Below, piece by piece: positions 1 to 53,301 of a stretch of 64,000 nt of DNA. The DNA comes from Hexactinellida sp. DTS-2022 (lineage: Eukaryota > Porifera > Hexactinellida): contig JAPNXP010000013.1 in assembly GCA_028753945.1 (NCBI GenBank), positions 2,790,001 through 2,854,000 on the forward strand, in the 5' to 3' direction. The position numbers were made by a program, and so were the translations under genes. Under the pieces are notes generated by a model, which made no database searches, was not told the origin of the DNA, and saw only the letters and a program-made list of their open reading frames with translations. How positions within the stretch are numbered: the stretch's first letter is position 1; the number at the start of each line of letters is the position of its first letter.

Positions 1-281
1 AATTCTCTAATTGTATTTCCAGGGTTCTTGCCAGGATTTTTCGTTGTAGGGTTCATGAGAGTGAGATATTACTTAATGTCAATGAATTAATGAAACCTTC
101 AAATATTAATATTGACTCAATGGGTACATGCCCACTCACAACATGTGAATAAAGGGTACAATTGCTTTCAAGAAGGGCATGTACCTTTTGATAGAGGCCT
201 AGCGAGAACACTGTGTATTTCTGTAACTTTTTCAATTGAGAATGATTTTAATTCAATAGATTCTAATGCTATAGCTATCGG

Positions 282-671
282 CAGGGAATTAAAGGTTCAC
301 GGACTTAATTGACGCAATTCAGTTCAGCTCCACCAGCGTTCGTTCAGTTCATTCTCTGGCTAACCCGCGTTCGTTCAAAGTCTGTGGGTCGAACTATTCC
401 GTTTATGATAGACTGTTCAATTCTCCAAGCTGTTATTGAAGTTCAGGTTAAGAAGCTAGAATCTAGGCTAAGAGAGTCCACTAGGGATTTCCGGAATTAG
501 CACTTTTGCAGTCACCTATTATATTTAATGGGTCGATATTTATAATTTATCTTTATTCAGTTTAATTCGTTCAGTTCAGTTCAATTCAGTTCGTTCAGTT
601 GCCTTTTGGAAACCGTTGGCGTTCGTTCAGTTCAAGTGCAATAAGTTAGTTCGTGAACCTTTAATTCCCTG
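282..671. mobile_element. hAT-type MITE with perfect 8-bp TSD
   Basis: A 390-bp element with terminal inverted repeats CAGGGAATTAAAGGTTCACG and its complement at the right end. It is flanked by the direct repeat gctatcgg (74... i.e. 274-281 and 672-679). The 8-bp duplication and CAGGG start indicate hAT mobilisation. It is non-coding, with internal 'gttcagttc' repeats at 320-625. It sits inside transposase relic copy A, so it is younger than that copy. Confidence 0.9.
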
Positions 672-2350
672 GCTATCGGCTATGATTCCAATGGTGATAT
701 TTCGTTAGAACATGCAAATAATAAAACTACTCATGTACGTCACATAATGACTCACATTAATGCATGTGAAAGAAAAGAAATTGGGGAACAATCAATTAAT
801 ATTTCAGCAAGTAATATTTTTCATAGACAATTTATATTGGAAAAGAACATTGAGGCATTTAAAAGGGGTAATTTCTCTAATCTAAAATCCCAACAAACTT
901 TAAGAAGAACTAAATCAGACTTGAACTCTATAGATAGGTTCTTCAATGACGATATAATAGATATTTTGGAAACTCAAAGGCGTTTCCGTTTAGAGTTACC
1001 TGACGATCAAATACCAGGTTACATTAAATTTATGGTTCAAAATCCATTTATTATTAATGTATATACCTTAAAACAGATATAAGTTTTTAAATTCTTAAAA
1101 AATAAAAATATTGTACTGAATATAGACGCCACCGGTTCTATTATCAAAAAGCCATCAATATGTGCAAAATCGAAATACTATTATGCTCTTACTTTACAGC
1201 ACCCTGAATTTTGCACGAGCCCGGTACCTGTTGCAGAAATGATAAGTTATGCCTAGGGATTCTCCGAAATAACTCATTTTTTTAATAAATGGATATTAAC
1301 GTGTAAGCTAATTCTCTATAAGATATAAATATTGACCAAGTTGAAATGGACTATAGTTGGCCATTAATGCATAGTACATGTTTAGCATTCAATAAACAAA
1401 GTATACCCATATATATTTATCTAAATGCTGGGAAATTGTAAACTGTAATTTGTAAAACCAATGGAAAGTTAAATTTACCAACTGTATTGCATCTCTGTTC
1501 GGCACACATAATGCATACATAGTATTAGTTACAAATTAGCTAAGAATTATAAAATTGATAAACAACTCAAACAGATAGTGCTACATGCATGCGGTACTAT
1601 GGTACAAAACAAGTACAAACATCGAAGAAAGAAATATTGTTTTTGCATCCCTGTGTGTTTAATGACAACTGAATCAATGTTACCCCCAGTTACTAAGAGT
1701 TTGTTAGATTTAGAAAGTATAGTGAAAGACGATAACCCTGAAAATTTTGAAAAAGATACCTATATATATAAACTTCCCCATTTGGGAGAAATTTTAAGGG
1801 GGCCTACAGTGAAATCTGTGCTAAGTTTTAAAACTAAAACAATTGACATCTAACAAAAATTTTGTTATTACTTATTACCCACAAATCCTAGAATATATGT
1901 TAACTTATTATATGCCATCGCTACCACTTTGGAGTGGAATTTTATTAAACAAAGTACAGTGCAACCTATATAAGTGGGGGAGCTTGGGACGGGAAAATTT
2001 GAATTGCCCCCCATTCCCCAGTTATAATTTTAAGGTAGCAGTATCCCATGCAGTATACCCTGAAATTTACCAATTTCGGGTACTTTGTCACTTTTAAGTT
2101 TTATATCATTTCTGGTTAGAAGAGCCTATGCCGCATCTCCATTCCAAATTTTGTATAGAAATATTGAAAACTTTTAATAATACCGACTTTTTTGTGACCT
2201 CCACCTAAGCCACTCCTGTAGGGGGTCATTTTTTTCTGACCCCGCCATCTCCAGTCGCAACTTTTGTCGATATGTAAGACACATTTTGGCTCATATACAA
2301 CCTAGAAACAAAATCTCAACGGTTTTGGACAGCTTTCAAAAAGATACATC

Positions 2351-2863
2351 CTGGCTATGTAGCGATTCATTCAATTTGAAAAACTTCATTAGTTTTATCC
2401 TAAGTTGTTTAATACGTCTTTTATTGGCTACGTATTACGTATAATACGTATAATGTAATACGTATTATACGTATACCTTACATATAATATCGAGCTCATG
2501 GAATTTGCTTTGAACAACTTTTGGTTTAATCGTTATTCTTTTATTGTTAATCGACTCGTAGTATAGTTTGTATAGTACAAATATGATTATTTGCTCGATG
2601 TTGTTTTTACAACAAGAATTAGAAATATTATATTGAATTTACTTCAAAAACATTCCTGGTTGATCATAGATTTAACGTATAATACGTACTGGGGATAGCG
2701 TATTACGTATAATACGTATTATACGTATTATACACAATACGCGTATTAAACAACTAGGTTTTATCATTTTTAGATCAATAATTTTTCATTTTCAAACTGA
2801 CATCGGGTAAAATTCTGGAAAACACATAAAAAAATAGTTTCTCCTCAATCGCTACATAGCCAG
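2351..2863. mobile_element. Nested inverted-repeat MITE pair
   Basis: The outer inverted repeat CTGGCTATGTAGCGATT (2351-2367) pairs with 2847-2863. Inside it, a second element at 2399-2758 has ends CCTAAGTTGTTTAATACG and the complement of CCTAGTTGTTTAATACG. The inner element carries ATACGTATTATACGTATT-type palindromic arrays just inside both ends. 'gttttat' occurs next to both inner ends and may be its target duplication. No coding potential. Confidence 0.65.
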
Positions 2864-3104
2864 CGTATAGCTACTCCAGATAAACATTAAATTCAACCAA
2901 TTCATGTTGATAATTTCTTAGGAATCTATTACATGAATATGTGAAAATCCAAAGTATATTTTCTCAATGTTACTTGAATATCAAATATTATTGCGTTTTT
3001 GGCATCTATGCGATGAACCAATTCGACTGTGAAGATTTAAGTTAAATCGGGTCATTCTTTCTCAAAAAGTGCTGGGAAGGATGCTGGCACGGGAGCGCTG
3101 CATT

Positions 3105-3245
3105 TGTTAGAATTTGTGATGTTGTCAATTGTTAGAATTGGTCATGTTATCATTTGTTAGAATCTGTCAAGTTGTCATTTGTTAGAATCTGTCAAGTTGT
3201 CATCTGTTAGAATTTGTCATGTTGTCATTTGTCAGAATTTGTGAT
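3105..3245 (+). repeat. Left-end ~25-bp tandem array of the MULE
   Basis: About five to six imperfect copies of a unit reading 'tttgttagaattygtcatgttgtca'. The same array appears inverted at 5218-5358, so it is the terminal repeat of the MULE rather than an independent satellite. Confidence 0.85.
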
Positions 3246-3391
3246 GTTGCTATAGTACCAACTTCTAAGTTTTCTTATGCTGGTTAAATGAAATCACTAA
3301 CTGTGGAATTAGTAAACAAATCAATTGGTATCTTATGATCAATCGAGTGCATTATGTACATCCATATTAATAAATAGCACATACGTACATA

Positions 3392-6293: not shown

Positions 6294-7640
6294 GGTATGA
6301 AAATAAATGTTACAGAAAGAAATATTAAGCAACCGCCCCGTCCCGAAAATATTCAGATCCTTTGACCCGAAAAAACCCGCGGGTTGCCGGTTCCGCAACC
6401 CGCCCCGCGAAGAGGTCTAATCTATTCTAAACAAATTCGCAAAATACATCTTCAAAGAAGACGAATAAGAGAATCTAAAACTCTCTAATCTTACATACAA
6501 AATTTATTCTGCCTTAGGTATTGTCTGTGAGGTAGTATTGTGTATTATTAAAACATCAGTTGTCTTTGTATGAAATAGTAGTAAATAATAATTTAGAGTT
6601 TTAAATGCAGTATAAATGTTAAGCAGAAAATACGAGAACTAGGCTGTATATAATTGACGTCGTGCAGAACTTTACGTAAAATTGGTGAAAATTCCTAGAG
6701 TTACTCTTGGGGGCATTTACGCGACCAATCCCTAGAGTAACTCATGGGGGCATTTTACGTGACTTCCCCCTGGAGTTACTCTTAGAACGATTTTACGCAA
6801 GCAACCTATTGGCGTATTTTATTAACACAGGTGCAGTAGCCTTTATATGGGGGGATTTTACGCGAGTTGGACCTTTCACCTAAATAAGCCTATTTATGAT
6901 TACCTCCCACAGCGTTATGGCCATAATTACCCTCAATGTTATGGTTGAATAATTAGAACTGATTCCACTACTCTAAATGCTGGTCATCGCACCTTATCTA
7001 AGATTTATTCTAAAAAATATGGATAAAATTAGAATTGTCAAATAGAAATATATATCTCAAATATTCGAAATTTATAATTAAGTCTTTGTATTATGAATAC
7101 ATTTTGGCCCCCTGAAAGTTAATAATAAGTGAACCTGCTGACTAAATAAATACGTACAAAATAATATGCCTATTCTGACGTAGATAAGCTATTAAGTAAT
7201 AAATTAACCATATTTTCGTTAGTGAGTTCTTAGTATTTGAGTATAATCCTGCTGGAACCCAAGTAAAGTAATGGTCAGAATTGACTTTGCTAGTTTAATT
7301 GTTTGATATTAAACACTAGAGCGTAATGTCTTTATAATCTAGAAAGCTAATCAGAAATTAAACAGAAATATTGGGTTAGTGGTTTGAACGTATACTGTAA
7401 ATTATAGTGATTATTTTGAGGTTATGATTCGTTCTAATATTTTAGGCAATTAATTTGATATGAACATATTTTCTGAGTAAGTAAGATAATTATATATATT
7501 TAATAAGTGATCAACTGCAGCAACTATAACTAATCGAGAAATAGCTAAAATATTTAGAAACAGATGAGTAATAGGTACCATATCTATAGGAACATCGAAT
7601 GCTACTGTTTCGAGAAAATTATGTAATTGTGTTCAACTAT
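6294..7640. other. Non-coding stretch with short tandem repeat
   Basis: No supportable gene. 6320-6415 is a GC-rich island of 'cccg/cgggt' motifs unlike its surroundings, resembling sequence at 40,450-40,530 and probably a MITE piece. 6690-6800 has three ~45-50 bp direct repeats built on 'agttactcttgggggcattt'. The rest is AT-rich and shows no motif I can interpret. Confidence 0.5.
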
Positions 7641-7666
7641 AATTATAATCAAGTGGAATTCGCTTA

Positions 7667-9233
7667 TTGTTTTTTTATAAAAAGTCCCAAGAGTATATTT
7701 GTATTAATTTTGTTTCTTTATTACCAACTTCGACTATTAGCCAAAGGCGCAAATGGACTCTAACACTTGCTAATAGGCAAACTCCACTACTATATACCGT
7801 ATTGAGTTTATTTGAATTAAAAGCACACAATCACAAGCTTTCAGATTATAGGGCCGAAGTTTACCTCTTAAAATCAAAGTGCTTAATCGTGGCGAGAATC
7901 TCACGTGACAGACTATCTAAGGTGTTTAAACAAGTGATCCGTGATGATCCTGCTGCGACTACTTTATTATATAAAAATTTAGAATCAACAATGTATCGCG
8001 CACGTAGAGAAATTGAGCCACCTATTCCTGGAAGTCCTGCTGAATTTTGTCAAATGATTCCATCATCACAATTTGGTGTCCATTACAAAGGTGAGGTACA
8101 TGTGGGAAATGATATGGAGTAATTTTTTTCTCAGATCAGATGACTGCTACACTATCAGAAGTAGAAGACATTTATTTCGATGGAACATTTTACACAGTCC
8201 CTTCCCAATTCTATCAACTGTGGACAGTTTTTGCACGATTTGGGCGTCACGTACTCCCTGAGATTCATTGTCTGCTTACAGTCAAACAGGAAGAAATCTA
8301 TACTGCTGTTCTAGCAAGAATTCATTAACTTCTTCCACAACTAACACCTATTAATGGGATGTCCGATTGGGAAAGGGGTGCTAGAAACGCTGTAAAACAC
8401 GATTTCCAGGTATTCTTCTTAGAGGATGTCATTTTCACTATTCTCAAAGTGTCTGGCGTAAGATTCAAAGGTTAGGCCTTTCCAATGCATATCACTCGAA
8501 TTCGGAATTTAAAACAGCAGTTAGGTGTTTTATGGCTCTTCCATTTCTTCCCGAAGATCATATTCGACCAATATATAATCACTTAAATTTGGAAGATGTC
8601 ATTCTTACTGCTGAAAATATGGATAACTTTACCATTTTTTAAAATTATATCAGAAAGCAATGGATTGATGGCATTCCTAGCAACGAACTCTCTGTTTTTA
8701 ACTGTCGATTCAGAACGAACAATGGAGCGGAAAACTACCATGGTAGATTGAAAAAGGACATCGTAGTCGCACATCCACGCATTTGGTTCTTTGTAGAAGT
8801 CTTAAATAACACAATCCAGGATACTGATCTAGATATTGAGCGTCTAAGCAAAGGCATTGATATCACTCGCACACGAAAATTGAAAGATATCCAGAAAGAT
8901 TCATTCCTTAGTAACTGCAGAGAAAAGCTTGTGTCAGGTTAATATGATCTAGTCCAATATGTGAAATCAATTGCCAACTCGATTCAACCAGAAACCAATT
9001 CGATTGATATGATACATGGAGATCTTCAAAGCAATTCTTCAATCGATGACGATAATGAGCGTGAAACTCCTCAACAAATTGCTGCTTGCTGTGTGTGCCT
9101 ATTACGTAGAGAAACAACCGTAGTATTTCTTCCCTGCAGGCATGCTAAATGTTGCGAGAATTGCAGCGTACACCTAGAACAATGCCCAATGTGCAGGTCT
9201 ACCATCGAAGAACGATTCCAAATATATACTTGA
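7667..9233 (+). pseudogene. MULE transposase with C-terminal RING finger, copy 2
   Basis: This copy keeps more of the N-terminus than copy 1: KAHNHKLSDYRAEV, then RARREIEPPIP. A clean 44-nt intron fits at 8091-8134 (AAAG|GTGAGG ... TTTCTCAG|AT) and joins the frames at VHYK-DQMT. Catalytic blocks follow: IYFDGTFYT, MSDWERGA, GCHFHYSQSVWRK and NNGAENYHGRLK. The C-terminal RING reads CCVCLLRRET...CRHAKCCENC...CPMCRSTI and ends RFQIYT at 9233. Damage: stops at 8326, ~8638 and 8940, and a frameshift near 8405. The sequence is clearly diverged from copy 1, so this is a separate, older insertion. No terminal repeats were found for it. Confidence 0.85.
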
Positions 9234-15900: not shown

Positions 15901-16019
15901 CAATTATGAAAATAACCCAAAATGTATACTAAATGCGGTCTGGCCAAGTCTGATAAATTCGAATCTTAAAGTACTTACAGTAATGAAAAGTGTCAATTTC
16001 ACTGTTACTGTATATGTTG

Positions 16020-16120
16020 TAGGCGAAATTGAGTACCAGGCGAGATTGAGTCTCAATTTCGCCTGAAACTCAATTTCGCCTGCGAGTGTCAGGCGAGATT
16101 GAGTACCAGGCGAAATGGAG
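16020..16120. repeat. Short inverted and direct array of an AGGCGAAATTGAGT motif
   Basis: About five copies of 'aggcgaratt(g)agt' in both orientations within 100 bp. They can fold into hairpins. No gene nearby. Confidence 0.7.
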
Positions 16121-16759
16121 TCATAATACTTATAGAAAATTTATAACTAAATATTATGGGTTGTTAAAAATTGATTATATCCCAGATCTAATCCAGTTAT
16201 TCGTTCACTTATCATACTAGGTAAACAAAGTATCCTGAATACGAATTTGACACTCACAAGTTTCTAATACAAATATTTATTGTTGTTATTGACAATATAG
16301 GTAAACAAGTTTGTAAAATATTAGAATTTACATAGAGATTAGACGATTATTTTAAGTAATTGCATATGCTAAATACGAATTTAGAATTAACTACTTGCAA
16401 ATAAGGGCTGTTTGTTGTTAAAGTTGGGGAATTAATGACTAAGAATAAGATTGAGATTTTAAATTATAAGTAAGTAAGCAAACAAGTATCATATAGAACG
16501 TATATAAATTAATATTGAACATTGTAAAAATGAATACGAGTCCTTTTATAAGTTTATTATAAAGCGAGGTTAAAATGTAAATATATTCGCTAGCAAAAGC
16601 GAACGAGATTATAGGCTCGTAATAAATATCTATCGTAATCTACTCGCGAATTCAAACCATTCCACTCAAGCCACCAGTTTAATCTTCAATACATATTATT
16701 TTAAATACATTTACTAAATAAACAGAATATAATTAAACGGACACATTCTTTACTGATAA
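16121..16759. other. AT-rich stretch without recognisable feature
   Basis: No open frame, repeat pair or terminal repeat that I can support. Confidence 0.4.
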
Positions 16760-17930
16760 GCTGGTTCTTGTTAGTTGGTTTAATAGTTGGCTGGGTTGTT
16801 AGTTGGTTTAATAGTTGGCTGAGTTAATAGTTGGCTGAGTAATAGTTGGCTGGGTTGTTAGTTGGTTTAAGGAGATAGGTCCTCAAATTTTCGACACCCG
16901 ATAACCCCTAATTATTATTGTGTTTTCGAATAGTACTAATTATTCTAAGAAGGACCTAGAAGCTCAGAATTTCTAAAAATCGAAAAATTTGAATTAGATA
17001 TTCATAGTCAAAGTTTAGCCTAATAGTGAATCCATACTAGTCATTATAAATTCTAGCTATTTACTCTAATTGGCGCAAGTTCTATTATAGTGCAAGTTTA
17101 ACTCTACTACATTAGTACAAGGGATTATGCCACACAGAATTTTCAATATCGATTTGATTCTTTTTTTCTATAGATTTTCAAATAATCACTCGATTTTATC
17201 AGAATTTTGGCATTATATAATTATTAACTCTATAAATTTGTATTAAAGTTGAAAATCGACACGGCATAATCCTAAGAACAACTGACAAGGATCATTTTTG
17301 AGGGATAGTTTTTTTCTCTACGACTTATACTTTTTGAGATACACATAAGAATACAAAGGTCACTCTCAGAAAATCTTGCGGAATTTTCTTTAATACAAAA
17401 TAACGGCGACTTTAACCTTTAGTTACGTCAAAAAGGTCGAAGAAATGTCCGAATCAAATTTTTCTTTCGGAATTGGATAGATAGTATATCAAAGTTTAGT
17501 TGGGAGTGCTTAAACAATAATCCATAATTTTTCATGATTTACTAATAATTGAGTGTCTTATCCCCTAATTTGCACAATTCCCCATTCTTTGACCTTCAGT
17601 GACGTCAAAAAGGTCAAAAAAATGTCCGAATTAAAAATTTCTTTCGGAATTAGATAGATAGTATATCAATGTATAGCTAGGCGTGCCAAAAACAATATTT
17701 TTGCGTTTGCAACATTAGTGATTAATTTGAGGACCTATCTCCTTAATAGTTGGCTGAGTTAATAGTTGGTTTAATAGTTGGCTGAGTTAATAGTTGGTTT
17801 AATAGTTGGCTGAGTAATAGTTGGCTGGGTTGTTAGTTGGTTTAATAGTTGGCTGAGTTAATAGTTGGTTTAATAGTTGGCTGGGTTGTTAGTTGGTTTA
17901 ATAGTTGGCTGAGTTGTTAGTTCTTTTGTA
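16760..17930 (+). repeat. AGTTGGTTTAATAGTTGGCTG minisatellite, split in two
   Basis: Units combining 'ttagttggtttaatag' and 'ttggctgagttaatag' occupy 16,760-16,866 and resume at 17,747-17,930. The 872-bp TTAA-flanked element at 16871-17742 sits between the halves, so the array existed first. Confidence 0.85.
16871..17742. mobile_element. TTAA-flanked inverted-repeat element (piggyBac- or Kolobok-like MITE)
   Basis: 872 bp, ends GGAGATAGGTCCTCAAATT and its complement, flanked by TTAA (16867-16870, 17743-17746). A TTAA target is used by piggyBac and Kolobok elements. The right half contains two diverged ~140-bp direct repeats (about 17,405-17,520 and 17,585-17,700). These share 'gacgtcaaaaaggtc' and 'tttcggaattrgatagata'. 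No transposase. Confidence 0.85.
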
Positions 17931-18060
17931 AATTTGGTTTTTTAAAAAACCGGTGCAGTTATTGGTTTGAGGCAAGGTGAGGCGATGGTCGAGGTTTTGA
18001 GGTAATAAGAATGTTAACAGAGATCCCAATTAGAAAAGGAGTAGGCTACGTTACTGCGTA

Positions 18061-19893
18061 ATGACGATTGATGATGTAAAGGTACTATACTACAGGGAAC
18101 AAGATGTCCGAGGTATTCCACGACCCCGTTTACGCGTAGTACCCAAGGAAGACCTATGGGACACACTGGTGCTCGCACATAAGGAGCTGTCTCATGGAGG
18201 ACGCGATAGGATGGAAGCCTACTTCCTAGAGCATATGTACCACATCCCTCGTGAGGTAATACTCCTCTTTCTACGCCTGTGCCCTATCTGTCAGGCAACC
18301 AAAGGGAGAAAGTCCACACAGAAAATAATTCACAAGCCGATCATACCTGCAGGGGTTGGCGTACGTGGACAGGCTGATCTGGTCGACTTGCAGTTAAGTC
18401 CTGATAACGGGTACAAGTTCATCCTCAATTACCAAGACTGCTTCAGCAAGTTCGTCGTCCTGAGACCACTCAAATCCAAGACAGCAGAGGAGGTGTCACA
18501 GTGCTTGGTGCGTATCTTCTGTGAGCATGGCCCGCCTCATATCCTGCACACAGATAACGGCACTGAGTTCGCGAATAAGACACTGATCGCTCTTCTACAC
18601 AAGCTGTGGTCAAGCACACGTATCGTGCACGGCAGGCCTCGTCACCCAGAGGATCAGGGGAGCGTGGAGCGTGCTAATGGCGACTTCAAGAAGCTACTCT
18701 ACGCCCGCCTCAAGGATGAGAAGAAAGCCCAGAACGAGTGGGTGAGTATCTTACATTATGTTCAATACTCTAAGAATATTGCACATCACCGTGGTATTAA
18801 TGCCACTCCCTATTCTGTGCATTTTGGACGAACGCCGCCCGATCTCAGTGTGGACATGTCACTACCCAGGGAAGTGGTCCAGCCACTCGAGACAGAGGAC
18901 CAACTGGAACAAGCCCTCGATAGCAGACAAGTGATTGAGTATGCCTCTCAGGACTCTGCTACGCCCACAGCTCTACCTTCACCCAGTCTCATCCCACTGT
19001 CACATCTATCCTTGCAGGCGTCACCTAGTGAAGCGGATATGCTAGGTGCTACTGCGCCGCCACCTGGGTCCAGCTTCTCGCTGCCTACTTGCTCCTATGA
19101 CCCAGATGCTAACGATTGGCCCTCTGATACTTTTCTCTTAGACTCACAGCAAGCTGGGAGTAGCCAAGATAACGATTCACCAACTGGGTCTCCCCTCCTT
19201 AACCCGCCCTCGTGCTTAGATGTGGACTCTTACGAGGATTCATACGACATGAGTGTGCGCCCACTGATTGGATGTGAGACTACTCCCTTCTTCGACCTCT
19301 CTCCGATAGTTCCTGCACCCTCGGTACAGACGCCACCTACCTGCGTAGTATACCCGCTTGATCCAGTCCCTTCCTGCGGTATATGCCACATTACTGACGA
19401 CAATGAAACTACAGCCTGTAGTCATTGCCGGGCTGAATTATATAGCTGGCATCTTACGTGTATAGCCTCTGTGGCTGCCTATGCGGACGCAGGTGACCAG
19501 TACTTCTGTGAATCGGACCAGTTCTGCAAGAGTGCTCTGGATACCGCCCGCAGACGCCGCAATAGCTGGCTAGCACTGAAGAAACAGGGAGGTAGCATGA
19601 TCGAGTCAAGTAAGAAACGGTTCAAGCCTCTAGAGCTCGGCGACAACGTCCGGATACCTATCCCTAGTGTTGACAGAGCCCCTATTGGCCCTACCAGCCT
19701 GGTTGGCACTGTGACTGACATATACTCAGAGGGAGGCGCATTCCAAGTAGGCACTAAGCATGGTACGATCAAGACTGCTTTCACTCGCTCAGATTTGACC
19801 CCATGTGGTACAAGTCAACTCCTCCTGCCTACTGATGTCCCAGACCAGGAGCTATCCGTCAGAACGGCTGCCAGGTTGGAGGCAGACAGGTAA
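18061..19893 (+). pseudogene. Ginger/KRBA2-like integrase, C-terminally truncated copy
   Basis: A 610-residue open frame. An HHCC integrase zinc motif lies at H40, H45, C74, C77. The RNase-H-like core has D106/D109 (GQADLVDLQ), D165 (HTDNGTEF) and E203 (QGSVERANGDFKK). A low-complexity S/P/D-rich linker follows, then a PHD-type Cys/His cluster near residues 439-480 (CGICHITDD...CSHC...HLTC...C). A basic C-terminal domain closes it. This is the chromosomal 'GIN'/KRBA2 integrase layout shared with Ginger transposons. The frame ends 'RLEADR' where the inverted-repeat arm stops, so the Cys-rich tail present in the other copy is lost. There are no internal stops. The base composition is more GC-rich than the surroundings. 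The start codon is uncertain. Confidence 0.8.
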
Positions 19894-19934
19894 TATACGT
19901 GGGCTCAGTATTTCTACCGGCATACGTATATTAC
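19890..19934. repeat. Hairpin at the centre of the palindrome
   Basis: GTAATATACGT (19890-19900) pairs perfectly with ACGTATATTAC (19924-19934) across a 23-nt loop. It lies between the truncated end of the + integrase copy and the stop codon of the - copy. It may be part of the original element's 3' end. Confidence 0.8.
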
Positions 19935-19942
19935 TGTAGTTA

Positions 19943-21548
19943 TTAATGTTTATTGTTGCACGTAGTACTACTGTGACATTTAGAGTTGCACTTGACCTGC
20001 TTCTTGTAGCACGTGCAGCGTTGGGAGAGGCACGTCTTCTTGCAGTGGCAATATATGATACTAGGGCCACCTGCCTCCAACCTGGCAGCCGTTCTGACGG
20101 ATAGCTCCTGGTCTGGGACATCAGTAGGCAGGAGGAGTTGACTTGTACCACATGGGGTCAAATCTGAGCGAGTGAAAGCAGTCTTGATCGTACCATGCTT
20201 AGTGCCTACTTGGAATGCGCCTCCCTCTGAGTATATGTCAGTCACAGTGCCAACCAGGCTGGTAGGGCCAATAGGGGCTCTGTCAACACTAGGGATAGGT
20301 ATCCGGACGTTGTCGCCGAGCTCTAGAGGCTTGAACCGTTTCTTACTTGACTCGATCATGCTACCTCCCTGTTTCTTCAGTGCTAGCCAGCTATTGCGGC
20401 GTCTGCGGGCGGTATCCAGAGCACTCTTGCAGAACTGGTCCGATTCACAGAAGTACTGGTCACCTGCGTCCGCATAGGCAGCCACAGAGGCTATACACGT
20501 AAGATGCCAGCTATATAATTCAGCCCGGCAATGACTACAGGCTGTAGTTTCATTGTCGTCAGTAATGTGGCATATACCGCAGGAAGGGACTGGATCAAGC
20601 GGGTATACTACGCAGGTAGGTGGCGTCTGTACCGAGGGTGCAGGAACTATCGGAGAGAGGTCGAAGAAGGGAGTAGTCTCACATCCAATCAGTGGGCGCA
20701 CACTCATGTCGTATGAATCCTCGTAAGAGTCCACATCTAAGCACGAGGGCGGGTTAAGGAGGGGAGACCCAGTTGGTGAATCGTTATCTTGGCTACTCCC
20801 AGCTTGCTGTGAGTCTAAGAGAAAAGTATCAGAGGGCCAATCGTTAGCATCTGGGTCATAGGAGCAAGTAGGCAGCGAGAAGCTGGACCCAGGTGGCGGC
20901 GCAGTAGCACCTAGCATATCCGCTTCACTAGGTGACGCCTGCAAGGATAGATGTGACAGTGGGATGAGACTGGGTGAAGGTAGAGCTGTGGGCGTAGCAG
21001 AGTCCTGAGAGGCATACTCAATCACTTGTCTGCTATCGAGGGCTTGTTCCAGTTGGTCCTCTGTCTCGAGTGGCTGGACCACTTCCCTGGGTAGTGACAT
21101 GTCCACACTGAGATCGGGCGGCGTTCGTCCAAAATGCACAGAATAGGGAGTGGCATTAATACCACGGTGATGTGCAATATTCTTAGAGTATTGAACATAA
21201 TGTAAGATACTCACCCACTCGTTCTGGGCTTTCTTCTCATCCTTGAGGCGGGCGTAGAGTAGCTTCTTGAAGTCGCCATTAGCACGCTCCACGCTCCCCT
21301 GATCCTCTGGGTGACGAGGCCTGCCGTGCACGATACGTGTGCTTGACCACAGCTTGTGTAGAAGAGCGATCAGTGTCTTATTCGCGAACTCAGTGCCGTT
21401 ATCTGTGTGCAGGATATGAGGCGGGCCATGCTCACAGAAGATACGCACCAAGCACTGTGACACCTCCTCTGCTGTCTTGGATTTGAGTGGTCTCAGGACG
21501 ACGAACTTGCTGAAGCAGTCTTGGTAATTGAGGATGAACTTGTACCCG
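19943..21548 (-). pseudogene. Ginger/KRBA2-like integrase, N-terminally truncated copy
   Basis: Same protein as the + copy from YKFILNYQD onward, but it continues past RLEA into GGPSIIYCHCKKTCLSQRC and a Cys-rich tail (CTCYKKQVKCNSKC) ending at 19943. It therefore shows the natural C-terminus missing from the left copy. The HHCC zinc motif and the first catalytic Asp lie upstream of the arm and are absent. The open frame runs on to 21628 only through unrelated sequence. Neither copy can encode a complete integrase. Confidence 0.8.
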
Positions 21549-22254
21549 GATAAGATAGCTTCAAAAACCTTAAAAAAATAGTTAAAGAATGGACCTTCCA
21601 TGGTGACAAATGACGTAGGAATCTTCAAAAGGCTATTACATTGAAAGTATAGTCCCGATTGAGTTGAAATTTTCAGTGCAGGTACTACTTATTGTATACT
21701 GTTCAAAAACACTCTAATCTCAATTTATGAAATGTTCAGATAGGGAACTTAATTTTTCAAAATGATTCCCGGAGGCCCTTTGAATTTGTCGCTATAAAAA
21801 AGTTTGCCCAAACTTCCAGAGCGGCGGCATGGGAGCTTAAATCGCGAGATATATCCTAAAGTATCAGAATCAGGCATAAAACTTAACTAGCCAGAGGTTG
21901 GTCACGGAATCTTTATTTTTGACTCCACTATTGGTTTCATAATATAAATCTGTTTACCGCTAACAAATATTTTGTGATAAACGTTTAAAACTTGACACAA
22001 TCAAATTACATGTTCTGATGGACATGTAAACTTAAAGTGGTACCTGAACATTTTATCTGTATTCAGAAGGCCATTACTAGGCCATAAACATCATTTGTGT
22101 ATTTAATATTTATCAGAACATTTTCCTCTAATAACTTAACTAAATGTCAAATATTATATTAAAAATTAGAAAATCCTAAATTAGACCACAAAGTTGTTCA
22201 AAATATAATGCAAATAATCTAAATAATAATAATTTTATCAATTATTAGGCTATA
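21549..22254. other. AT-rich stretch without recognisable feature
   Basis: Starts exactly where arm 2 of the palindrome ends. No open frame or repeat pair that I can support. Confidence 0.4.
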
Positions 22255-30010: not shown

Positions 30011-32925
30011 CTAAGAATTAAACTTTTTCAATTTTCGTTTCTCTAATCCTTTAGAAATAACCTTAGAATTGTAATTTTTAACTTTATTAGCTATTAAACA
30101 ATTTACTTCAATGAATACAACTTTGCGAAGAATCAAAGACATATTTAATTTGAAAGAGGGACATTGTTCTCTCCAACTTCCATCAACAACTGAACAAACA
30201 AGATCCAGTAGAATCTGCCTAGATGGTCCTTCCGCAAATATGCGCATCAATTCTGTATTTCCTTCGATAATAGTTAATATCTTCCAAACAGCTATTATGG
30301 AATCCAAGAGTAGCTCAGAGGGATATTTCAGACCTCCACGATCAGTAAGTTCCAATAGTCTATACTGAGATCCGGCTGATTCATCAAGTAGGAAATTTTT
30401 ATCAATGATTAATATATCTTGACATATGTGGCATGGTGGACTACGTTTAAGGTATTGGTGTGCGGCATATCCGGCTATAAAAGCTAATGATTGAAGTATT
30501 TGGGCATCACACTCAATGTTGGATAGATCTGAAATTTCATTAAGGAAAGGGTCAAGATCAAAATCAGTATCCGAAAATGCCTTCTCAGAAGAAAAGGATT
30601 GGATAAATTATTGTAAAGAATTACACTACAAGATTCAGACTGATAGGAAAATAGATTTAAAATATTTGAAATTTTCAGACTTCGCTCAGCTTCTAATATT
30701 TGCATATAAGAAATGTGGTAATTGGCACCTGACATCATACGATAAAGTCCGAATCGATGTTCCAAAGGGTCCGTCTGTAAGAAAGAGGTTAAAAGGTATG
30801 AATATCCACATGTGCCCGCCAGATAGTTAGTTATTTGTGGTAAAACAAGGCAGGCATGTCTTAAGCTTGTGAAAGTTTGTTTGCTTAATTTCCCATCTTT
30901 CCCAGGAAGTGAATCCCAAGCGGCTAACCAATAAACTATACGATCTAAAAAGGCAAAGCGGTCGTCATTAAATGTGAATGGTTGAGAGGGCGGATCGTTT
31001 AAACGAACATGCTTGTATGGAGCATTTACATTGAACATTTTCCATAAAGATAAGATAATGTAAAGAAAATCTGAAGTATTAGATTTATATGCAGCACAAC
31101 GTTGGTCATTTTGAATGGTTAAAGCAGATATTGTGGATTCATGTATGACCTTTAAAACTAATTTCACATTCTGACGTTCTAAACAAGAAGGAAAACATGC
31201 TTTAAATGTTAACCTTGGAGCTAGTTTTGCCAAGCTTTCTTTCTCAGAAAGATATAAGGTACGGACATCGCGGAAAGAAGCTGTGCACAGTCTCAAAGGA
31301 TAGGAACAATAATTGGTTTGTATATCTTCTAAATTAGGGTAAATAAAACTCTTACTCTCTGACTTTAGATTCAACCAGTTATTTCGTATTGTCTTCAATA
31401 TGTGCACAAAATCAAAGGTGAGAAATAGGATCCGATTTGAATCAGAAGGATGCGGAACTTGAGTTTCCAGCTTACCATTTTTAGAGAAGAGTTTGAATAA
31501 TTTTACATTGAAAGGATAGTTGTCGGTAGAGATAATATCTACAACTAAACCACAAAGCTCTATATCTTGAATACATAATACCACTATAGCGAATATCGTT
31601 TCCGCTGAAAGAGAAGCACAGGGTAACAAACGAACAATACAGGACCATTTTTTCTGAAGACTGGAGACCATGATAGCGAATACAGTTTTGACCGGATCTT
31701 CTGGTCTTAAACTAGCACCATATTTCTTACCACCAATATATGAAATATCCGATTTGACATGAATTTCACTAGCACCATATATCTTACCACCAATATATGA
31801 AATATCCGATTTGACATGAATTTCGTCCCTTTTGACAATTACATGTTTTTCAGGATTAGAGAAAGAATGAGTCGCTTGTTTGAGGAAGGGAAAATAGTAA
31901 CTTTCAAGGCCAGATGAAGAATATAACTTGAGTAGAGTATTGACATGAGGAAGAGTTAGACAAAGCATCTGCTGGAGATATTTATAACAGGCTGGAGAAA
32001 TTAAATGTGTTTTAAGAGCCAAAACTTGTGTTAGTACATTATATCTACGCCTGTTTTGAGGGACGAGGCTGTTTTCTAACTGGTATTGTATGAACTGCAG
32101 TCTTGAAAGTTCTGGATAATCAGTTGATTCTAAATCGGATTCATTAGTTTGCAAAGTATTGATGGCTTGTTGGATATGGTCTTTTGCTAAAGAGATATGT
32201 GAACCAGTCGTCTCAGAAACAAAAGATTCACAGGGATGTGTTGATTTAGAAATTTCACCAAGAATCGTTTCAAGTTGTCGTATATCACTAATTGAGTTTA
32301 GCGAAAGCGAACAAGGTTCTCCATTACAATTGGCTCTAACAGATAGATCAGAATGTACTATCAAGTACTTATTTACTAGGATATCGCTATTTATTAGACT
32401 AGGGCGCATACAAATTATACTCTTTTCGTCAGGATGCCATAATGACCATGTTTTTGGCAAGGGAAGCAAAGATAACTTGTCAGGAATATCATGTAAACTG
32501 TTAATCTTGAACTTCTCTACCTCTTCAGCTTCTGAATTCAAGCTAAGTGTTAAAGTTTGGTTGAATAGTTCATATTCTCTTAAGTCGAGGGGACGTCTGC
32601 GCTTAGCACTAGATTGATAGTATGATGGACAACCGGGTAGATAAACTGGTACAGCGCCATCTTTCAGCTTTGGGCTGACTCGAGGAATTTCACGGAAAGT
32701 TCCATCTCCATTTGGAACTTTGTGGCTGTATTCTATATCTTCTTCGCGGAAATGTTTCATGCAAATATAAACAGCCTTCAATTCATCTAAATCATCCCTC
32801 CGAAGAGCCCTAAACCAGGAGTGTCTGAGTTCAGGTGGATTTTGTGGTAATTTGAAAACTGGTACAATTTCTGAAGAAGATTTGTAGTTGCTTTTGCAGC
32901 CAGGAGCCGAGCAGCAATTAGGCAT
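30011..32925 (-). pseudogene. P-element (THAP) transposase, one frameshift from open
   Basis: Begins with a C2CH THAP zinc finger: CCSAPGC, W36-type WFRAL, then ICMKHF, and the AVPVYLPG closing motif. It continues through a P-element catalytic core (KRDEIHVKSDISYIGG, IISTDNYPFNVKLF, FDFVHILKTIRNNW). One frame is open from 32925 to 30484. Near 30590, within 'ccttttcttctg', the reading must shift by one base. The other frame then gives DTDFDLDPFLNEISDL, CHICQDILIID and a basic tail ending 30011, about 970 residues in all. Length and order fit THAP9/P transposases. An in-frame 57-bp tandem duplication repeats 19 residues at the first Asp region. Damage is otherwise minimal. No introns are needed. 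Confidence 0.88.
31712..31825. repeat. 57-bp tandem duplication inside the P transposase
   Basis: 31712-31768 and 31769-31825 are adjacent copies differing at few positions. In the protein, EIHVKSDISYIGGKIYGAS is followed by the same 19 residues with K for I. The frame is kept. Confidence 0.95.
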
Positions 32926-43187: not shown

Positions 43188-46100
43188 CATAGGCGTCGAA
43201 CTTTCCAATTTTTCTTAAAATCTGGGGGGGGCAGCCAGAGAAGATTTAATAAAAGACATTATTTTTATGTTGTAATTATAAGGTAATAAATAACAATAAT
43301 TTTAATTTTATAACGTAATTATTGCGTCTTGACATCTCCCTGATGAAACTTATTTATTCTCACAGTTGATCTTTCGATAAACTCCTGCATCAAGTCTTCG
43401 ATATTTAGGACCGTTCGAACCCAAGTCCCTGTTACAGTTAGAAATGCAAGGCTGCTCATACGTTCTTGACCTTGAGTTGACCTCAAGTAAGTGTGCAGCC
43501 TTCGTAACATGCTGAAAGATCTCTCAGCTTCGCATGTCGTTATAGGGAGGATAAGATACAAAACTAGAGCAGTGTGTAACCCAGGGAACATGGCCTTCAT
43601 TGCTGGTTCAGACCTGAGTTTCTCCTGTAGAGATTGGTAGGACGTTTCGAGACCTTCAAGGCTACAACGCTGAAACCAAGCCTGCCTTTCCCACCTTAGT
43701 TGCGCAAATTCTGGAAGGTCACCTTCATAGAATCTCGCCAGCTCATTTAAGTCCTCGTCTGCCATTTTCTTATCCTCCAAGGAGCATCTCAAGAGCTCAG
43801 CCACATGAAGATCTTGTTTAGAGTACCGGCTGAATAGAGCCGAAGCTGCTGATCGGAATACCTACATAGAGCCACTAATTAATTGTGTGTTAGTAAATTA
43901 TAAATGAAATGAAAGTTTGAAACCCGATTATATTGTAAACATCCTACTAACCTGCTTGTATATTTCTATATAACGTTGTTGGATCTGAACCTCCACATCT
44001 TGTGTGTCTGTAACCCGTGGGATCGCCCTTTCCACTGTTCGCTCAGCTCTTGTCAGTCGCAGAGGCCTAGGTTGGTCAATTCTAAGATTTCCTGCAGCAG
44101 CCTTTACTTCTTTGAAAAAATCCTCGGCGTTGACATCACAATAAGCTTGACTATTTAGAACATCCATGAGGCTATTAACCCAATTTCTGACATCACCCAC
44201 TGTTACCTCTCTACCCTGACACATAGTATGGATAGGGTTTGTCAGGGACAACATCTTCTTGAATACCATAATTCCAAAATACTTCTCGAATGATTCAAGA
44301 GAACGCAGAAATGAGCGGGATTCGGCACGCTTTTCAGCTTTGAGGCTTCTATCATCTTGTAAAGATTCGAGCAGCTCAAGAACCGTAGTGTAGTGCGCTA
44401 ACAGACTTTCCACACTAGGGAGTCTCATTACCCACCTCGTCGGACAAAGCGGCCTCAACTCCCGCTTGTCAAGGTTGGGGTTATCCAAAGCTGCTGCAGC
44501 TACCAACTGTTTGAACACTTCATATCTTTTAGGGGACGTTTTAATGAAGTTTATTACTGCATGCAGCTTTTCTAGTGCGTTTTCCACCTCTCGCACTGAT
44601 TGCATACTCTCTTGCACCACTAAATTGAGATTATGGCCAAAACAATATATCCACAAGGCTTTAGCGTTCTCAGCTCGCACCTTGGTTTGGAGACCACCGT
44701 GAACTCCAGACATATTAGCTGCCCCCTCATATCCCTGCCCCCTCATCGAATCGAACGGTAAATTCAGAACATGTAATGCATCTTTAAGGATAATCATTAA
44801 AGTATCTGCGTCTGTGGTCTTGGTATGAAAAAAGCCGAAGAAGGTCTCTGTGGGCCTAAGATCACTGTCAACGTGGCGGATGCATACACTGACCTGCTCA
44901 CGCCGCCTGATATCCTGAGTCTCATCCATTATAATTGAATAGAAGAAGCGGCGCTGCTTATTGGCTTCCCCAGCAGTAGAATCATGCTTGATGAGAGTAA
45001 TAATGTGTTTGGTCAGTCTGTCTCTCATTAATTGTATTATTTCGTTCTGAATTTCTGGGCTCATAAATTTCAACCGCGAACCTGCAGTAAAAATGTTTTT
45101 ACATCCTCGTTGAACCTCGAGATAAGAAAGTCAAGGTTCCAGATATTTTAGGTCTCTTTTTCATCCCTGTGCCCACGAAGAGCAAGCCCTTGTGTAGCAC
45201 AGGTCATGACACAATCGAATATTGCTCTGAGAGCAGTCCTGTTAAGTTCAATGTCTTCACGTTTGATTCTATCAAATCTATCATCGATTACTGGTTTATT
45301 TAGCTCCATCAGATATACTGACCAAGCGTTGTGGTGGTCAGATTGGTTTCCTCCCATATGCCTATCAAGTGAATTTTTTCCTTTCTTGATGTCTTTCCAT
45401 CCTTCACCATCGCATGTCTTGAGCCACTTAGAGGTGCCTTGCGTATTGGCCTTCTCAAAGGGACGAATGCGGTTATTAGTGATAACCCACAAACAGACGG
45501 CGCAATGACACGTATCCATGTCTTCGTTGAGTTTGAGCCACTTGTAGTCCACGAACCACTGCTTCTGCATGTATCTCCTATAATTTCTATCGCTCTCAAA
45601 AGGCATTTGTTCAGGAAGTTTCTTGATATCCTGAAGGAAAGGAAGCACACAATCCTTAATGTTTGGATCGTTGAATAAAGTATACGACATACTGGAATTC
45701 TCATAAGCTGAAAGTGAGAAGGGGGCGAGGCATTCTAGCTGTTCGGAAATTTCTTGGTAACCTTTTGAAGGCTGTTCAACTGATGATAGACTGTGTTCTA
45801 AGGATCCCGATGGTCTAGAGTATAATTCTGAACCTCCAGTGACCTCTCCGTCAGCATTATCATCTTCTGTAGCGGTTAATCGCGTTTTCTTGACTGTGAA
45901 GAAAGAGTTTATTAATGACTGTTGCTGTTCTATCGGAAGAAAGACGTTGCGCTTTGACATAGCTAGTTATGGAAGTGTAAATTATATAATTATATATATA
46001 CAGTATTGTATTGGAAATAAAACTTATGATATGATAGGAGTACAAAATGTAACGAAGCGATATAAACGTACAATCGCTTCAGCAGGAATGCTTCTAAGGA

Positions 46101-51293: not shown

Positions 51294-53301
51294 TGCATTC
51301 CATACACCGAGAGGTTTATGCGAAATATTGGCATGCCGTTTGGCATGGTAAACTCAGGCGCTACTTTTCAGAGAGTTTTGGGTCGGACGTTACAGGGTAT
51401 CAAATTTGCGGAGAGTTACGTGGACGACGTCCTAATTTTTCCCGAGACGTTGAACAATCATATCGAACACCTACGAAGCGTTTTTCTCGGATCTTTGTCC
51501 TCTTCAATGGCTGAGACGTCAGTAGGATCCACGTCACAAGTATGCGCGATAGATTTAGGAGTTGGAGGCACTACCTTATCGAATAGAATATCGTCCGGGA
51601 AACCAGAACAAAACGGCAGACTATCTCAGCCGGGTTCCTCACCTCGACTGTAAAGACGGAGTGGTATATGATGCAGAATTTGAAGGCCATGTCGGACTGT
51701 ACATACTTGGCACATCAAACAGAATTCGGAGACGGATCGTCACGAAGCAAGTGGCAGATCCGGTGATGCAGAATGCTGTTCAACAGTTGCAGAACGAAGG
51801 GACTATTATGACAGGTCAACTATAAAGGGTTACGAATCATTTACGTCTTGACGGACAGATATTGTATTTCGATCATAGTAGTACCTTTGAATCAAAGGAA
51901 GGAGATACTGAGGGAAGTGCACGCACAAGGACATTTTGGCGCTGCAGGTAACCTTGACGCCCTAAGACGGAACTACTTTTGGTCAAAAATGGCAAGAGAT
52001 GCGAAACTGTTCTGTCAGGAATGCATAATATGTCAGCGAGTTAATCCATCGCGTCGATCGAGGGAACCAATAGAACCAATATCACTCGGAAAGGATTGTC
52101 CTGGAGCTACTATAGGGGTTAATATTGGAACGCTCCCATGGAGCGATGGCGAATATAGAAATTTTCTAGTGATTGTCGACCTCTTCACACGCCATGTTGA
52201 GTTAATGCCACTCACGACCAAACAGCTGGTAGTGTAATCGCTGCCTTTGAACAAGGTTGGATTTATAAGGGCCATGGCGTTCCTGAAATCGTGGTTACTG
52301 ACCAAGGTTCACAGCTCGATGGCTCCGAGTTCCGGAAGTTTTGTACACCTATAAATATTGATAAACGCCACACCACACCTTACCATCCGCAATGCGATGG
52401 TATGGCGGAAAGGAACGTCGGGTTCATCAAGCAAGTATTACTTTGTCTGATGTTGGATCGACAATTAGCTAAAGTTCTTGGCCTGCGTTACTTCAAGAGG
52501 CGAGCTTTCACTGTAACTGCATGGCAAATGCGTCCAGTAGAGTTTCACAGTATAAATTGACATACGGCAGACAACCTCGGTCACCCATAGACTTGTGGTG
52601 TAGAAACCTTGGAAGTGGTACTCAGAATTCACATGGTAAATACCTTTATGCGTTAAGTACGACACAGACAGAATTGCACGTCTTGGCAAAAGAAAACATT
52701 GAACGAACTTTAACAAAGGCTATGGAGTCGTTGAATGCTGGAAGGTCGAGTTCAGTAGTTGGAAAGGGAGACAAAGTGATGCTACGAAATTGGGCCAGAC
52801 ATGACTCTTTGGACCAGAGATACGAGGGACCGTACGAGGTCTTAAACAGAAAAGGACCTGATGTGAAGATCAAAATTCAGAGACAGCTCCGAAACAGAAC
52901 TGGGGGCGCTCGAATTCAGCATCGCACAAAATGGATCCATCTGGATAGGTGCAAAGTGTATCATGGTTCTTTAAGTGTCTTAGGTGCACCGGCTCTGGGA
53001 CAGGTAGACAATGAACGAGGGGAGGAGATAGCCTCCAACGAGGAGATGGTTATACAATTTACATAGATCCAAAATGAACAAGAAATTAGGGATGATTTGG
53101 ATAGTGATGCTGTAGTGGTTACCCAGGACATAAACCTGAAAGTTACGGAGGATGAGGCCAGTTTGATAAAGAGAAGGTATCCCGCAAGAAATAGAAGACC
53201 TAGGAAGTAATATGGAGAGGTAGTCTCATGGGATCAAGTCCCCAAGAGAGGTGCAAGAAAGTCGAGTGGGAAGAAAATACTTGATAGGCAAGAGATTAGT
53301 T

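Follow-up and report, generated by a model that had tools for sequence, protein, structure and literature searches.

How a transposase gene came to lie in two inverted copies of exactly the same sequence, and why neither copy is complete, is the question raised by a stretch of 64,000 nt (hereafter the window) that is part of contig C5 of a eukaryotic genome of 112.4 Mb in 18 contigs. Comparison with related copies across this genome leads to the answer that the locus is probably a defective copy belonging to a subfamily of Ginger2-type DNA transposons that turned palindromic.

A perfect inverted repeat made of two incomplete genes

An earlier, sequence-only reading of this DNA had described two arms of exactly 1,478 bp that appeared identical. 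Arm 1 and the reverse complement of arm 2 were compared base by base by string equality, which gave 0 differences in 1,478 positions; the arms are 100% complementary, and the length of the match excludes chance. The spacer between them measures 185 nt (Table 1). Both arms had been attributed to one integrase gene, and the Pfam family rve was indeed found in both open reading frames (ORFs), with E = 3e-10 and E = 1.4e-9. The left ORF displays an H2C2-type pattern from residue 40 and the residues D106, D165 and E203. When it was compared by sequence with solved structures, retroviral integrases were nearest, with a chain of PFV integrase in first place (2.9e-15). Two further domains gave fainter signals: Integrase_H2C2 reached E = 0.051 in Pfam, below the family cut-off, and the TCR/CXC model gave a weak match to the Cys-rich tail (E = 4.1). 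A PHD finger was considered and rejected, being a pattern match only, and Pfam gave no PHD family for the two window ORFs.

The two genes are incomplete at opposite ends, as the same reading had held. The first Asp of the left gene lies upstream of the start of arm 1, in the sequence said to supply it together with the zinc motif, and the Cys-rich tail of the right ORF is encoded within the spacer, which had been taken for the natural C-terminus of the opposite copy. At its start, the right ORF has ~27 codons that lie outside the transposon, in the different repeat that starts at 21549. Elsewhere in the window, long ORFs are located at 30484-32925, 43319-45960 and 51318-53066; judged by eye, their products presumably resemble THAP-type, hAT-type and gypsy-type transposon proteins.

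Table 1. Features of the transposon copy and its surroundings in the window. R is a reference sequence taken from the complete element L009, described in the text.
Feature	Position	Strand	Remarks
Left terminal inverted repeat (TIR)	16015..16180	+	TIR end exact at 16015, right limit approximate; GTATA immediately before it; corresponds to the left end of L009
Left non-coding region and start of 28-bp tandem array	16011..16870	+	R 4-916 of L009, 82%
Foreign repeat inserted into the 28-bp array	16871..17742	+	boundaries approximate; 84% match to L013 2233-3033
Remainder of 28-bp tandem array	17743..17942	+	tandem-repeat family
Left transposase ORF	18061..19893	+	610 aa; H2C2, DDE and PHD-like pattern; lacks the Cys-rich tail
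Palindrome arm 1	18408..19885	+	1,478 nt; R 1591-3068
Spacer	19886..20070	-	L-type; holds the right copy's 3' end with Cys-rich tail, stop and stem-loop
Central stem-loop	19890..19934		found too in the single-orientation copies L011 and L018
Right ORF	19943..21628	-	561 aa; Cys-rich tail present; zinc motif and first Asp missing
Palindrome arm 2	20071..21548	-	1,478 nt; truncated at R 1591
Repeat of another family, ~382 bp	21549..21930		outside the transposon; the element's right end is missing here

A complete palindromic transposon and its relatives

A DNA search of the genome with arm 1 returned at least 26 matches in 16 clusters, repeat counts in this genome being lower bounds. The analysis covered 15 of the 16 clusters and left out a 42-bp match on C4, as well as a 103-residue piece at C18:3.90 Mb that was listed by the protein search alone. 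The inverted gene pair is present at three loci: the window, C16:1.41 Mb and C16:1.94 Mb. The full element lies at C16:1408077-1414095 (L009) and its sister at C16:1.94 Mb (L010). Both have 6,019 bp in common at 99.95% identity (2 mismatches and 1 gap), in a block bounded by TGTTGTAGGCG... and ...CGCCTACAACA with TATA at either side; the match ends at the block borders. Bounded by TIRs and TATA and nearly invariant, the shared sequence shows that the whole palindromic element of 6.0 kb moved in one piece, and did so recently. Another repeat adjoins both insertions, to the right of one (L009 8097-8560) and to the left of the other (L010 1309-1749), the two being 85% identical.

Within this 6.0-kb transposon, a 4.2-kb palindrome is formed by two convergent integrase-type transposase genes. 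The order of the parts is TIR, left non-coding region with the 28-bp array, gene, short loop, inverted gene, a different right non-coding region and TIR. When the reference sequences R (L009 2078-5336) and E (L009 7398-8096) are used to describe it, L009 consists of R 1-3259 forward, R 3259-1138 inverted and E 1-699. Its TIRs are ~170 bp long (172-bp match at 93%), and its convergent ORFs, listed as 659 and 700 aa, are identical in their last 650 residues. One of the four gene copies in the C16 pair, the right gene of L010, is frameshifted.

The outer junction of the palindrome, R1138(-)/E1, is common to L009/L010, L015 and L023, and its occurrence at these three loci points to an old palindrome that is ancestral to all of them. 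Gene sequence in right-arm orientation was found in 8 of the 15 clusters analysed, 14 sources having been mapped (the window, L009, L010, L014, L015, L017, L020 and L023); L017 was counted with no left end identified, and L020 has gene sequence exclusively in this orientation. Such sequence is missing from L011, L013, L018, L019, L021 and L022, and by inference from L012, which lay outside the mapping and was classed through its 99.9% identity to L011; L011-L013 are a single insertion within duplicated surroundings.

These copies bear on the possibility, raised in the sequence-only reading, that the palindrome was created by assembly or library preparation through a folded read or a missed adapter. 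The perfect arms of one copy would fit such an error. However, the palindrome recurs on other contigs, with target duplications and with two copies that have clean transposon boundaries, and the outer edges and inner ends of L009 have diverged. In the window itself, coding and 3' sequence makes up the 185-bp spacer, and another repeat adjoins the right arm at 21548. An artefact is therefore highly improbable.

Gene pieces on both strands characterise 6 of the 16 clusters of the palindromic subfamily, two of the six being the C16 pair, that is, one arrangement. As a control, the single-gene relative L046 gave at least 44 matches in 34 clusters, and only 1 of the 34 had pieces on both strands, where a 98% copy lies head to head with a 68% relative. 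A second control query from the window, which we take to be a hAT element, gave at least 15 matches in 12 clusters, 0 of 12 on both strands. L046 (33% amino-acid identity over 578 query residues, 176-bp TIRs, TAAA target duplication) was also one of 10 distant relatives (L043-L049 and L051-L053) that were checked for self-matches with 1.5-kb flanks. Its one long inverted pair corresponds to its TIRs, L047 and L048 have short self-matches of 125 and 82 bp, and the other 7 of the 10 have no self-match of at least 80 bp within these limits.

Other traces of the transposon are scattered over the genome. The 15 bases of the transposon end occur in at least 105 exact copies (56 forward and 49 reverse), and the reversed control in 0. 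Several facing pairs of ends, 4-11 kb apart, match none among the transposase places listed and may be non-autonomous relatives. At G000:C7:2753388-2757352, two different Ginger-like genes lie head to head, ~1.2 kb apart.

The window copy is a damaged element

The element in the window starts well to the left of the inverted repeat, at the TIR; neither this nor the recurrence of the palindrome at other loci figures in the sequence-only reading. Its left non-coding region (16011..16870) is 95.6% identical to L014. Expressed in positions of R, its layout is 4-916, a foreign insertion, 913-3068 forward, 3253-1591 inverted and a foreign repeat. The segment 16871..17742 is regarded as an insertion because the 28-bp array is present on both its sides; the matching part of L013 belongs to a segment that is absent from the near-identical L011, with 5 bases shared at the break.

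At the other side, the ~382-bp repeat that starts at 21549 matches more than 30 other places in the genome. Some of its copies form inverted pairs ~300 bp apart, for example at C8:1.24 Mb and C4:3.71 Mb, and it probably represents the terminus of an element of the fold-back type. Rightward of the window palindrome, no right TIR was detected with a 19-mer allowing up to 3 mismatches or with an 11-mer allowing up to 1 mismatch, and mapping to the L009 reference revealed no E segment in the window beyond 21549. The window copy is thus a defective derivative with a partly deleted centre, a right end lost at 21548 and two incomplete genes. Since it encodes no complete transposase and has lost its right end, it should be unable to move by the normal two-ended route. 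That the arms are the element's own long TIRs was ruled out, the ~170-bp TIRs being separate and outermost.

The arms are homogenised within elements over the coding region

Apart from an assembly error, the sequence-only reading had offered two explanations for the identity of the arms, a much younger event or homogenisation, and the C16 element distinguishes between them. When its left and right arms are aligned, 17 of 142 sites (~12%) differ in the first 150 columns, upstream of the gene. The next ~1,800 gene columns contain 0 differences, and at the 3' end 7 of 149 sites differ before the loop is reached. Over the stretch in common with the window arms, L009 has 0 differences in 1,478 positions, and L010 has 1 in 1,477 plus one gap. 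In L015, left and right differ at 13 of 113 sites of the outer edge; beyond it, only 3 sites differ, all of them near the inner junction (3/253 in the common stretch). Comparison between elements gives a different result, with 18 differences in 1,478 positions between the window arms and the L009 arms.

The transition from one regime to the other can be followed in an alignment of the four arms of L009 and L015. Five side-specific sites are located in columns 70-95 and 22 element-specific sites in columns 107-691, and 1 site, in column 98, fits neither grouping; no formal probability is attached to this ordering, an argument made post hoc from linked sites. In these columns, the window gene has its start codon at 114, and the left ORF of L009, which is longer, has its first ATG at 87. 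Because the arms are identical within elements, different between elements and diverged at their outer edges, the pattern amounts to concerted evolution, for which arm-to-arm gene conversion in a mobile palindrome, with a tract edge near the gene start, is the best explanation. Homogenisation is the option that these data favour. Youth was rejected as the cause of arm identity in the family, where it is unneeded and contradicted by L009, whose outer edge and 3' end have diverged and the remainder of whose gene is identical.

Evidence that the encoded protein is under constraint is weak at best, because the left genes of the window and L009 are separated by 13 synonymous and 18 non-synonymous changes over 608 codons. 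Between the window and L011 genes, there are 37 synonymous and 97 non-synonymous changes over 601 codons.

Probable flips and deletions at the centre of the palindrome

The 3' ends of the genes fall into two types, L and R, which are defined by a few bases and by the orientation of the loop. In L009, the order across the centre is L-type, loop, R-type. L023 has the same L- and R-type flanks with the loop reversed between them, and the right arm of the window ends in an L-type 3' end. The sister copy L014 combines a left gene edge that differs from the window at 0 of 137 sites with an inverted 3' segment in right-arm loop orientation, a right end and a TIR. Its inverted 3' end is mixed, with mostly R-type bases and some in common with the window, and two more switches (R 2833-3061 forward and R 2343-2031 inverted) precede E and the right TIR. 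Several R-type 3' bases may be ancestral, since L011 and L018 have them too. In L015 and L020, the mapping jumps across the centre. Taken together, the patterns at these loci are those expected for a palindrome that loses its centre and recombines between its arms.

Rearrangement is visible in other parts of these copies as well. The two-ended copy L014 (3469-6996) has an interior pieced together from gene segments in forward and inverted orientation; a 229-bp segment of it is 100% identical to the window arms and its main gene segment ~98%. In L018 (4105-6325), the gene 3' end and stem-loop are directly followed by the inverted left non-coding region, which constitutes another type of symmetry. 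Near the palindromic element of L015, there is a separate self-palindrome of 1.1 kb (6666-7767; 91% identity).

Descent of the window copy from the ancestral palindrome is something that we infer, because its right arm carries no R-type diagnostic: the outer edge is lost and the 3' end is L-type. A right arm and a spacer that are wholly L-type, arms with 0 differences in 1,478 positions and an inner junction (R3068 to R3253) distinct from that of C16 would also suit an L-type element with a single gene that folded back recently and independently of the C16 palindrome; the identity of its arms would then simply reflect youth. This second origin is considered unlikely, given that L014 already has inverted gene segments, the loop orientation of the right arm and a right end, and that the loop of L023 is reversed between L- and R-type flanks; a flip followed by a deletion can therefore explain the window without it.

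The origin of the ancestral palindrome may be sought at its centre, which coincides with the stem-loop that ends the gene also in the single-orientation copies L011 and L018. These copies could be reduced palindromes themselves, which leaves the age of the stem-loop uncertain. In yeast without Sae2 or Mre11 function, inverted duplications have been reported to arise where inverted repeats close to a break allow fold-back priming (PMC10622511), and repair of the gap left by cut-and-paste elements has been described as prone to template switching (PMC4168063). The ancestral palindrome could have arisen in a similar manner by DNA synthesis that ran through the gene and folded back at its 3' stem-loop, most likely during post-excision repair. 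The returning synthesis would have run back along the gene to a point shortly before its start codon and then joined the right end. Gene conversion would have maintained the identity of the arms, and occasional exchanges between them would have flipped the centre. The window copy has lost the 3' end of its left gene and, at 21548, its right end. The sequence-only reading had proposed a template switch on one full-length element. As a model for the ancestral palindrome, centred on the gene's 3' stem-loop, this is reasonable, but it leaves the arm ends now seen in the window unexplained; the equal lengths of these arms stem from two unrelated cuts, the loss of ~185 bp from the 3' end of the left gene on the inner side and the truncation of the right gene at 21548 on the outer side.

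Possible consequences of a palindromic transposon

Transcription of the + strand from the left end of the window copy would yield an RNA with a perfectly paired stem of 1,478 bp and a loop of 185 nt. The left gene of the window has no AATAAA, and none is found on the + strand through 23000; L009, by contrast, has one AATAAA per gene just before the centre. By analogy with what was proposed for Mu killer of maize, the window copy could be a source of hairpin RNA that silences intact palindromic elements, a role that we regard as rather doubtful, since the long-hairpin model has been questioned for Mu killer itself (PMC3440606). A broader scheme, put forward here tentatively, is that of a transposon lineage whose transmissible form is a palindrome with two transposase genes, in which conversion between the arms would use one transposase copy to correct the other, and recurrent deletions of the centre would yield defective, hairpin-forming copies that might silence the palindrome.

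Long perfect palindromes are, as a rule, unstable, and an inverted transposase copy is commonly read as a dead or self-silencing derivative. In contrast, the palindrome described here has moved intact and is older than the divergence of several copies, and inside elements its arms are kept the same or almost the same. Mammalian Y-chromosome palindromes undergo gene conversion between their arms, and if the above scheme is true, the palindromic transposon would be a miniature of them. The element provides a compact natural system for the study of gene conversion between palindrome arms, where tract edges can be seen and several copies are independent of one another, and in which it can be tested whether two self-correcting transposase copies prolong the survival of a transposon or feed RNA silencing.

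Classification and comparison with known systems

The ends, TIR length, target site and domain content of the element fit Ginger2/Tdd as described by Bao, Kapitonov and Jurka in 2010 (PMC2836005), with TGTNR ends, TIRs of 50-180 bp, a 4-bp target duplication and a preference for RTATAY. Like that group, the subfamily has ends of the type TGTTG or TGTCG (the window copy contributing a left end only), TIRs of ~170 bp and a 4-bp AT-rich, RTATAY-like target. TATA is duplicated in all four two-ended copies inspected (L009, L010, L014 and L019), the exact length of the duplication being uncertain in L009, where the flanks are TA-rich. As in Ginger2/Tdd, the gypsy-like integrase core with its DDE residues is present, and the H2C2 zinc-finger pattern is found in the left copy of the window and in both L009 copies. 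YPYY and GPY/F motifs, which that group lacks, were absent from the left copy of the window, both L009 copies and L046 when searched with simple regular expressions, and the right ORF of the window has one GPF inside its non-transposon first codons. Ginger1, with its CCGG/CCGT target, GPY/F and OTU or Ulp1, was rejected on the TATA target and the lack of GPY/F; neither OTU nor Ulp1 was detected by Pfam up to E = 10 in the two window ORFs.

The present element departs from Ginger2/Tdd in its internal palindrome with two convergent transposase genes, a contrast that rests on the description in PMC2836005, in whose main text the string 'palindrom' has 0 occurrences, and that excludes the ~6.1-kb families Ginger2-1_BF and Ginger2-1_LS. 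No earlier description of a palindromic transposon was found among the listed titles and abstract starts returned by searches of open PubMed Central papers.

Three known systems come close to this architecture in different respects. Mu killer of maize is likewise a partial inverted duplication (~1.3 kb) of the transposase gene of an internally deleted DNA transposon, but it is described as a single MULE-derived locus with two copies of the same transposon end (PMC3440606), whereas the palindromic form found here is itself mobile and possesses both of its own ends. Galileo belongs to the P superfamily and has long TIRs of the Foldback kind. It shares the long and structurally variable inverted repeats within a cut-and-paste element, and template switching in the course of gap repair is named for it; its repeats, unlike those of the present element, are terminal, with the transposase segment between them in the scheme given there (PMC4168063). 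Finally, sex-chromosome palindromes, in which arm-to-arm gene conversion occurs (PMC7023750), resemble the element in the near-identity of the arms within each palindrome, and differ from it in being chromosomal, the present case being a 6-kb transposon.
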